Source: Alphaproteobacteria bacterium (GTDB lineage: Bacteria > Pseudomonadota > Alphaproteobacteria > Micavibrionales > Micavibrionaceae). From it: 64,000 nucleotides of DNA. The position numbers and the translations under genes are program-made. The notes under the pieces were generated by a model. The model searched no databases and was not told the origin of the DNA. It saw only the letters and a program-made list of their open reading frames with translations. The stretch covers positions 1 through 64,000 of the forward strand of contig JANQFU010000009.1 in NCBI GenBank assembly GCA_028277665.1. Reading direction: 5' to 3'. Positions 10,636 to 30,446 of the stretch are shown here, in pieces (position 1 is the first letter of the stretch; the number at the start of each line of letters is the position of its first letter).

Positions 10636-10962
10636 ACGATATCCTTCGCTTTACGTTTCGTTCTGTGTCTGGAGGCTTGATCTGCACCTTAATAAAAAAA
10701 GGCAACGAATCAAGCCCCGTACACCTGAAAGTTTAAAACGTTCCCAGGTTTCAGGCAATACGCCTAATTTTGGCGGAGAAAAGTTTCTAAAATCTTACTA
10801 AAGCCGGATCACACACGTCGGTATGGTGTTTCCTGACAGTCTGATAAAAAACCCGTAAAATCCTTTTTTTCATCATTCCCGCGAAGGCGGGAATCTTTCG
10901 GATCAGCGAGCAGGAAGATCCCCGTTTTCACGGGGATGACGGCGTAGGAAGGCGGGAAACGC
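10636..10962. other. mreC-mreB intergenic region
   Basis: No coding potential is seen in these 327 bases. They contain a two-hairpin palindromic element (10872-10940, listed separately) and, closer to mreC, a small inverted repeat CCTGAAA/TTTCAGG (10724-10730 with 10749-10755). mreC probably has its own promoter here or is read through from mreB; I cannot identify promoter boxes with confidence. Confidence 0.5.
10872..10940 (+). repeat. Two-hairpin palindromic repeat element, intergenic copy
   Basis: The element consists of hairpin ATTCCCGCGAAGGCGGGAAT, a variable spacer of about 19 bases, and hairpin ATCCCCGTTTTCACGGGGAT, ending GAC. The same two hairpins in the same order, with an unrelated spacer, lie inside rnhB on the minus strand (20651-20720). 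Such sequences resemble short REP-like elements known from many proteobacteria. Confidence 0.8.
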
Positions 10963-19902: not shown

Positions 19903-20273
19903 CTATGGATAAGAATAAGTTATAAAACCAACAAAACCAACGTCATTCCGGCGAAAGCCGGGATCCAGAGAAAACGTTTTTCTTATTTTACGCGGCGGTC
20001 CGCAGAAACGGAGTTCTCCTCCGAAACTCCGGACCTTCGCGTTTAAACAACTCTATAGTCATTTTGAATAAGAATTACACACCCTATCTGCCATTGCGAG
20101 AAGGCAACGCCGACGAAGCAATCCAGAGTTTTGCTGGATTGCCGCGCTCCCTCCGGTCGCTCGCAATGACAATTAAGGTGTATAATTTTTATCGCGAAAG
20201 ACTATATGACTGGATCCCGGCTTTCGCCGGGATGACGTTGGTTTATAAGATTTTAAAGCCCTCTTATCCATAG
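19903..20273. repeat. Nested long palindromic repeat element (371 bp)
   Basis: The outer ends are perfect inverted copies, CTATGGATAAG (19903-19913) and CTTATCCATAG (20263-20273). Moving inward, CCAACGTCATTCCGGCGAAA...GGGATCCAG (19937-19967) pairs with CTGGATCCCGGCTTTCGCCG...GACGTTGG (20211-20242). Further inward TATAGTCATTTT..AATTACACACC pairs with GGTGTATAATT...GACTATA. The centre is a CATTGCGAG...CTCGCAATGAC element with its own stem (GCAATCCAG/CTGGATTGC). An extra hairpin (about 20008-20042, GGTCCGCAGAAACGGA/TCCGAAACTCCGGACC) sits only in the left arm, as if inserted. The 430-base gap between the XRE gene and rnhB holds nothing else. Confidence 0.8.
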
Positions 20274-20320: not shown

Positions 20321-21085
20321 TTAGCGCTTCCCTCTGTCTGCGAGGGCGTGTTTGATGGGGGCGAAGGAGGTTCTGTGGTGCGGGGTCGGACCGTGGAGGC
20401 GCAGAGCTTCGAGATGTGCGGGGGCGGGATAGCCCATATTCTTTTCCCAGCCATATGCGGGGTAGTCTTTCGCGAGGGTGATCATGAGGCGGTCTCGCGT
20501 GACTTTTGCGAGGATCGAGGCGGCGGCGATGCTGCGGCTTTTGCTGTCGCCCTTTACGATACATTGTGTAGGGCAGGGCAGGTCTTTGGGGCTTTGGTTG
20601 CCGTCGATGAGGGCGGTCGCCATGCGGGGTGCCGATATCAAAACATTGTTGTCATCCCCGTGAAAACGGGGATCTTCGGGGGGCATTGCGCTGAAAGATT
20701 CCCGCCTTCGCGGGAATGACGATTCTCTTCTGGTCGTCATCGCCGCATAGGCCCGGGTCATGGCATGCAGGGAGGCTTGCAGGATATTCATGCGGTCGAT
20801 TTCGGCAACGGAGCATTCCGCGATTCCGTAGCTGGCATGTGCCCGGATCAGGTCGAAGAGGCGGTCTCTTGCCTTGGGGGAGAGCTTTTTGCTGTCTTTT
20901 ACCTCTTGCCAGAAGGGCAGGTCTTGTGCGCTCTCCGGGATATGAACGCAGGCCGCGACGACCGGTCCCGCAAGCGGACCGCGGCCGACTTCATCCAGGC
21001 CGCAGACCGGGCCCGGAAATCCGGGATCAAAATCGGGATCGGGGTCAGACTTATGCGAGATATTTGCTGAGCGTTTCGTAGACAT
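20321..21085 (-). CDS. rnhB: Ribonuclease HII with in-frame repeat insertion
   Basis: A 254-residue endonuclease that removes ribonucleotides and RNA primers from DNA-RNA hybrids. The active-site carboxylates appear intact: Asp31 and Glu32 in GLDEVGRGPLAGP, Asp161 in ALIDGNQSP and Asp180 in VKGDSKSRSIAAASILAKVTRD. Residues about 119-147 (TRRESSFPRRRES through FHGDDNN) have no counterpart in the family and are encoded by a 70-base palindromic repeat also found between mreC and mreB. Without this segment the length would be close to the normal 200-225. The insertion lies in a loop between the helix AMTRAYAAM and the strand ATALIDG, so activity may survive. Its first codons overlap the end of pepN by 35 bases; it is the last gene of obg-proB-pepN-rnhB. 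Confidence 0.93.
   Translation of the reverse strand: MSTKRSANISHKSDPDPDFDPGFPGPVCGLDEVGRGPLAGPVVAACVHIPESAQDLPFWQEVKDSKKLSPKARDRLFDLIRAHASYGIAECSVAEIDRMNILQASLHAMTRAYAAMTTRRESSFPRRRESFSAMPPEDPRFHGDDNNVLISAPRMATALIDGNQSPKDLPCPTQCIVKGDSKSRSIAAASILAKVTRDRLMITLAKDYPAYGWEKNMGYPAPAHLEALRLHGPTPHHRTSFAPIKHALADRGKR
20651..20720 (-). repeat. Two-hairpin palindromic repeat element inside rnhB
   Basis: Read on the minus strand it begins GTCATTCCCGCGAAGGCGGG, has a spacer of about 20 bases, and ends ATCCCCGTTTTCACGGGGAT plus GAC, matching the intergenic copy at 10872-10940 except for the spacer. It is translated as the insert SSFPRRRES...PRFHGDD in RNase HII and keeps the frame. Confidence 0.85.
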
Positions 21086-30076: not shown

Positions 30077-30446
30077 GACCTGATTCGCCTTCCGCCCGTC
30101 CGAACGGGTGTCTATCCTTAACTTAACCAGTTTATCAGGAAAAATCCGGAGATGCCAAATTTTAGAAATACGGATTCACCACCCGTCAAAATTTTGTTAC
30201 CCCTGTGAAAACGCATGACTGTCCGGGAAAAGGTTAATATCCCCAAAACCCGCAACCCCTAGGTCTCGCCAAATGAAAACCTCCCGGTTTTCAAGGCTCG
30301 ACCCCCGCTTTTTGCGGGGGTAAACTACGGTTCCGGGATTGCGCGTTAACTTTTTTCCGGACCGTCGTGCGTGAAAACGGGGATGACAAGTTGGTTTTGG
30401 CTTTTTGACGGGTGGTGAGAAATACGGACGATTGCCCTGAATTTCC
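30077..30446. repeat. Long imperfect palindrome upstream of secreted paralogue 2
   Basis: The 370-base gap between the secreted paralogue and the DUF3126 gene holds no gene. Its left arm (30165-30238) is the reverse complement of the right arm (30345-30427) with about three quarters identity by eye: AAATACGG...CACCACCCGTCAAAA pairs with TTTTGACGGGTGGTG..AAATACGG. The centre contains two clean hairpins, GAAAACCTCCCGGTTTTC and ACCCCCGCTTTTTGCGGGGGT (30301-30321). Confidence 0.75.

Follow-up and report, generated by a model that had tools for sequence, protein, structure and literature searches.

How does a palindromic repeat come to lie in frame within a gene for ribonuclease HII, and which enzyme, if any, carries such repeats through a genome? 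In the window (the whole stretch of 64,000 nucleotides analysed here), the rnhB gene contains an element that reads, on the coding strand, as GTCATTCCCGCGAAGGCGGGAATC-TTTCAGCGCAATGCCCCCCGAA-GATCCCCGTTTTCACGGGGATGAC, that is, two 8-bp stems with 4-nt loops on either side of a 22-nt spacer. Folded as DNA, the element is predicted to form two hairpins with -17.9 kcal/mol, as compared to -9.5 for shuffles (z -3.65). Its arms are inverted repeats of ~26 bp, and its ends carry an unpaired tag, CGTC on one side and TGTC on the other. By these sequence characteristics, the element is a head-to-head dimer of CGTC-1 REPs, a family defined by a CGTC or TGTC tag, an 8-bp stem starting with AT, a 4-nt loop, and an arrangement in head-to-head heterodimers (Di Nocera, De Gregorio and Rocco 2013, PMC3733652). 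The family includes dRS3 of Neisseria and RPE-6 of Rickettsia (PMC3733652). The features of the window that are relevant here are the following:

20321..21085, minus strand: rnhB, ribonuclease HII, 254 aa including the insert, with catalytic D31, E32, D161 and D180 intact
20651..20720, minus strand: CGTC-1 REP head-to-head dimer, 70 bp, in frame within rnhB, residues ~122-145 (SSFPRRRESFSAMPPEDPRFHGDD)
20698..20720, minus strand: first REP of the dimer in rnhB, GTC head, 8-bp stem ATTCCCGC, loop GAAG
20651..20673, plus strand: second REP of the dimer in rnhB, GTC head, 8-bp stem ATCCCCGT, loop GAAA, making the pair a heterodimer
10872..10940, plus strand: second CGTC-1 dimer of the window, 69 bp, outside any coding frame
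19942..19964, plus strand: additional CGTC REP with a CCAG tail, left half of a head-to-head pair
20214..20236, minus strand: additional CGTC REP with a CCAG tail, right half of the same pair, downstream of rnhB

The initial annotation had already described a two-hairpin element that occurs twice in the window, and both copies, at 20651-20720 (minus) and 10872-10940 (plus), are present; they have both hairpins in common and differ in the spacer, as stated there. The pair of CCAG-tailed REPs at 19942-20236 surrounds nested longer hairpins (CATTGCGAG...GCAATCCAG and CTGGATTGC...CGCAATGAC), and the whole set lies within an AACCAAC/GTTGGTT inverted repeat, an arrangement that resembles stacked palindromic insertions. 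A further short element, which has GCATGACTGTCCGGGAAAAGGTTAA...TTAACTTTTTTCCGGAC as inverted ends, is found at ~30200-30386 of the window and on contigs C7, C15, C23, C32, C63 and C88. Half CGTC REPs are joined to it at both sides, suggesting that it is either a hybrid or an element that inserted at the centre of a dimer. We also considered an assignment of the rnhB element to an RNA family and rejected it, as the comparison yielded only a weak Rfam match to the Francisella sRNA FtrB (E 0.17). FtrB (RF02748, compared with window 20641-20740) bears the same hairpin and may itself be a transcribed CGTC repeat.

The repeat is abundant in the genome, a draft of 114 contigs and 2.27 Mb. A 24-nt half element matches 143 places with at most 3 mismatches (reversed control: 0), and 38 elements, 67-71 bp in length, show the exact two-hairpin pattern. 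With a covariance model based on 26 elements, at least 66 complete dimers are identified, as well as ~16 remnants; 150 candidates were scored on both strands, and the count of dimers is therefore a lower bound. Most dimers are heterodimers that combine an ATTCCC arm with an ATCCCC arm. Their tails are CTT, as opposed to the CCAG of the other REPs in the window (19942-20236). Beyond this genome, 398 Pseudomonadota genomes were sampled, and the half element with a degenerate loop occurs in 70 of them; the highest count in a single genome is 490 matches, and the control gives none. The flanks of the copies show no consistent target duplication next to the 70-bp core, and no base-exact empty site was found for the dimer. 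One copy (C82:14270-14338, L167) is surrounded, at some distance and unlike the other copies, by a direct duplication ACGACAAACGAGGAAAA. The copies at C34:60924, C35:4736 and C87:12265 have flanks and element in common and represent a duplicated genomic segment, within which the C35 element is slightly different.

CGTC-tagged REPs make up one of the two large superfamilies of REPs. They have a wide distribution among bacteria, Neisseria and Rickettsia among them, and the means of their spread has been in question since 2013 or earlier. They are described as lacking a dedicated transposase (PMC3733652). The genome analysed here contains a candidate for the enzyme. At C16:24955-25333, an intact gene for a GIY-YIG nuclease of ~99 aa is located between two head-to-head CGTC REPs, in place of the 20-bp spacer, and the tails of these REPs are those of the dimers (AATCTTT ... 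AAAGATCCCC). The genome holds only this one intact and one broken element of this kind; the second GIY-YIG gene (C1:10895-11098, L441) is interrupted by an insertion element of ~290 bp, whose TIR is GGGTCAGGACCTATAAATAAT.

The association of CGTC REPs with the GIY-YIG gene extends to other genomes. Among 90 small GIY-YIG genes (proteins of ~100 aa) that were found by HMM in related genomes, 22 are boxed by head-to-head CGTC hairpins within 300 bp, at a median distance of 19-22 bp from the gene, and 5 more have one hairpin. None of 20 UvrC GIY-YIG domains is boxed in this way, and none of 3000 positions drawn at random from other loci of these genomes is flanked by a head-to-head CGTC pair. If any inverted repeat is counted, 37 of the 61 genes of the boxed subfamily have matching ends, as compared to 11 of 182 mismatched pairs of left and right flanks, 0 of 28 other small GIY-YIG genes, and 0 of 20 UvrC; ~40% of the subfamily are without detectable matching ends. 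A second subfamily of small GIY-YIG genes in the same genomes is not boxed (L278-L288 and similar) and provides a natural negative control. The stem sequence varies widely between loci, and left and right stems covary: the two stems of a locus differ by 0.86 mismatches in six bases, those of different loci by 1.84 (0 of 5000 shuffles as low). In an independent draw of Pseudomonadota, 13 of 29 GIY-YIG genes are boxed head-to-head. Searching in the reverse direction, all 11 CGTC hairpin pairs that are 298-328 bp apart in 115 genomes enclose a GIY-YIG gene, where the spacing, not the content, was set from known cases. Across 58 genomes, the counts of GIY-YIG genes and of REPs are correlated (rho 0.56, P 6e-6).

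Boxed units are found in Shinella, Rhizobium CIAT894, Novosphingobium aromaticivorans (pNL2), Sphingobium, Aeromonas caviae and Azospirillum lipoferum. In the latter, the unit is located between sufB and sufC, and related species are without it. In Sphingobium relatives the unit is absent, or a solo symmetric hairpin is found at the site (2 of 4); these relatives are too diverged to provide a base-exact empty site. In N. gonorrhoeae and S. meliloti the hairpin heads around the GIY-YIG gene point inward. No relative of the GIY-YIG protein was found in phage records. Searches of the open literature found no paper that connects GIY-YIG genes with CGTC REPs, GIY-YIG is not mentioned in PMC3733652, and the partner gene of CGTC REPs appears to be new.

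We propose that CGTC REPs are the ends of an element whose sole gene encodes the ~100-aa GIY-YIG endonuclease, and that the dimers, including the dRS3-like and RPE-6-like repeats and the RNase HII insert, are its non-autonomous derivatives, a reading we consider likely. The boxed GIY-YIG genes would then be autonomous CGTC elements, with the nuclease gene located where the dimers have the ~20-bp spacer. The dimers would be internally deleted forms, in a relationship comparable to that of RAYT elements and GTAG REPs. The nuclease of the full-length element is probably the long-missing enzyme that spreads the repeat family. It would act on CGTC hairpins by cutting or nicking, after which the copy would be put in place through repair or single-strand insertion. 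Two variants are conceivable: a nick at the foot of the hairpin during single-stranded stages, or a cut of existing CGTC palindromes followed by repair that introduces a copy of the element. The second variant or, alternatively, a deletion between the arms would fit the solo hairpins seen in Sphingobium. We note that a nuclease by itself is unable to integrate DNA, which counts against this explanation. The single intact GIY-YIG element of this genome, the ~40% of the subfamily without detectable matching ends, the inward-pointing heads in N. gonorrhoeae and S. meliloti, the ~20 dimers within a larger TIR element, and the negative result for a target duplication or a base-exact empty site of the dimer count against it as well.

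The strongest competing explanation, which we regard as possible and clearly less probable, is that a different enzyme moves CGTC REPs, either a RAYT/IS200-type transposase or an IS acting through an outer TIR, and that the GIY-YIG gene is a frequent passenger. RAYTs are known to mobilise GTAG REPs (PMC3733652), and one Y1 transposase gene is located 5.5 kb from a dimer in this genome. As a partner gene this candidate was rejected: the genome contains a single IS200-like gene, which is not flanked by repeats, and the REP-rich relatives G005, G018, G021, G027 and G028 have no Y1 transposase. In favor of an IS, ~20 dimers lie within a larger element of ~130 bp with the TIR GGARCCTCTGCAAAA and TA at its ends, and for these dimers a route driven by an IS via the outer TIR is possible. 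The outer TIR is absent, however, from most dimers, including the copy in rnhB. A passenger role is also difficult to reconcile with the mutually matching ends that box the GIY-YIG gene at ~20 bp, and with the presence of this gene in each head-to-head pair at such spacing. One ~130-bp outer element (C114:36741-36796, L275; TIR GGARCCTCTGCAAAA) is without a CGTC dimer and may represent an empty site or a precise loss, since in filled copies AAAAA flanks the dimer on both sides.

Returning to rnhB, it is very likely that the insert is an in-frame, non-autonomous CGTC-1 palindrome whose copies would spread with the help of the GIY-YIG endonuclease of the full-length form. The 254-residue product is a good match to ribonuclease HII models. 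That relatives are without the insert is borne out by 58 related genomes: in all 52 that have the gene, the match to RnhB is split into two parts (~14-117 and ~155-248), and query residues ~118-154 are omitted. An alignment with the closest relative (64-70% identical) shows MTRAYAAMTTRRESSFPRRRESFSAMPPEDPRFHGDDNNVLISAPRMATALIDGN here and MSKAFDLAGGTADWLALVDGN there, so that the protein is 34 residues longer at this position; ~24 of these residues (~122-145) are derived from the element. The loop that holds the insert varies naturally in length among relatives. Asp31, Glu32, Asp161 and Asp180 are invariant across 50 sequences, in agreement with the initial annotation, according to which the active-site carboxylates are spared. 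AlphaFold2 predicts that the fold of RNase HII is kept (mean pLDDT 90.7, pTM 0.85) and that the insert forms a low-confidence coil (pLDDT 60-74) that links a helix to the strand bearing Asp161. The proposed in-frame, RPE-like palindrome that becomes a surface loop is supported. Neither of the conditions set for its refutation applies, since relatives are without the insert and dozens of further copies exist. The loop would be expressed and neutral for the enzyme.

To identify further intragenic cases, the flanks of 82 elements were read. In addition to rnhB, six genes contain an in-frame copy:

C1:6291-6358: alaS, alanyl-tRNA synthetase
C55:5079-5148: sufD (SufD), element in opposite orientation
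C100:27109-27178: gene for a ZnuA/AztC-like binding protein
C54:9426-9495: malQ (MalQ)
C46:3364-3433: dusA (DusA)
C100:4594-4663: gene for an AmgK-like kinase

A solute-binding protein has an eighth copy in its signal-peptide region (C25:9306). All 7 clear intragenic copies (rnhB included) keep the frame, within conserved genes and with long open frames on both sides; without selection, the chance of this outcome is ~1 in 2200 (one third to the seventh power). The peptides derived from the element are near-identical in unrelated proteins, and the alignment to solved structures or family models is interrupted at the element in RnhB, ZnuA/TroA, DusA and AlaRS. The insert in alaS is absent from relatives. 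A 474-aa ORF at C47:11680, at first sight another in-frame case, was left out because it matches no family and resembles an antisense frame. Also excluded were N-terminal open frames that run across elements, upstream of rpsA-, thyA- and uvrD-like genes among others, since these frames probably lie ahead of the true start. To avoid circularity, both 180-bp flanks were scored for coding potential without regard to the frame through the element. For 13 of 78 elements both flanks are coding-like, as compared to 85% of random segments of the window. In 10 of the 13 the coding strand is the same on both sides; 7 of these are the in-frame genes. Of the other three, one (C59, next to a remnant hairpin) is probably a junction between genes, and two have weak scores. 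The picture is one of insertion anywhere, followed by removal of harmful copies. Copies would land genome-wide, and selection would clear most hits in genes. The intragenic survivors would be those with a net length that keeps the frame, an open frame (mainly SFPRRRES...DPRLRGDD), and a position in a tolerant loop. Because surviving copies keep the frame, stay open and sit in tolerant loops, the element would be translated as a flexible, charged loop that affects the enzyme little.

Two other accounts of the intragenic copies are improbable. The insert in rnhB might have been selected because its loop or its RNA hairpins alter the activity, folding or expression of RNase HII. Such hairpins are able to act in mRNA and the insert stays open, but seven unrelated proteins are hit at unrelated places, the loop in RnhB is predicted to be unstructured, and the same pattern is observed over many genes in other bacteria (PMC3733652). 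Slightly less credible still is the suggestion that insertions mark decaying genes, such that rnhB and the others are incipient pseudogenes, or that they are assembly errors of a draft genome. All seven frames are open, and RNase HII keeps its catalytic residues. The alaS gene is essential and present as a single copy, and its conserved part is otherwise 66-78% identical to relatives. A chance resemblance of the second copy, with the RnhB loop as ordinary coding sequence of a kind that varies in length among relatives, is refuted by the genome census, since dozens of further copies (at least 66 dimers; 143 places of the half element versus 0 for the control) and near-identical peptides in unrelated proteins leave next to no room for it.

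As to its significance, the result that merits follow-up is the association of the GIY-YIG gene with CGTC REPs, the insertion in rnhB itself being known as a phenomenon. The boxed nuclease gene makes the spread of CGTC REPs directly testable, and the boxing suggests a function for a very common protein that is annotated merely as 'GIY-YIG nuclease family protein'. The in-frame copies represent a route by which mobile DNA may supply ready-made loops to essential proteins.

Compared to known systems, the repeats agree with the CGTC-1 REPs of PMC3733652 in the GTC/CGTC head, the 8-bp stem starting with AT, the 4-nt loop, the arrangement as heterodimers, the mainly intergenic location, and the lack of a nearby RAYT. 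They differ in the tail of the dimers, which is CTT instead of CCA (the commonest, not obligatory tail in PMC3733652), and in the GIY-YIG gene between the ends of the full-length elements, as PMC3733652 reports no enzyme. The same work lists CGTC-1 REPs across Alphaproteobacteria, with one family in Micavibrio, and tabulates intragenic copies that encode 20-30 residues in frame, many of them in repair genes and some in genes for tRNA synthetases. The in-frame insertion in rnhB is therefore another instance of a described phenomenon. The initial annotation, which considered this lineage to be without such a description, was not right in this respect; its reading of an in-frame, RPE-like loop was largely right, although the phenomenon as such was already known.

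The comparison made there with Rickettsia turns out to be one of kinship, since PMC3733652 assigns RPE-6 to the CGTC-1 family, and the kinship rests on that assignment. RPE-6, RPE-4 and RPE-1 likewise are palindromic in-frame inserts in conserved genes whose relatives are without them, as for rnhB and alaS here; some RPEs are longer (105-146 bp, PMC2229807). The dRS3 repeats (NIME) of Neisseria have an identical hairpin GTCATTCCCGCGAAAGCGGGAATC (as printed in PMC7593972). Unlike the repeats described here, they are organized in large clustered arrays with other repeats in between, and the hairpin heads that flank the GIY-YIG gene of N. gonorrhoeae point inward. Finally, REPtrons and REPINs (GTAG REPs and RAYT) share with the proposed element the short palindromic ends, a single enzyme gene, and the non-autonomous head-to-head pairs. 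The GTAG tag is absent from the repeats of this genome. The tag is CGTC instead, and the enzyme of the proposed system would be a GIY-YIG nuclease rather than a tyrosine HUH transposase.
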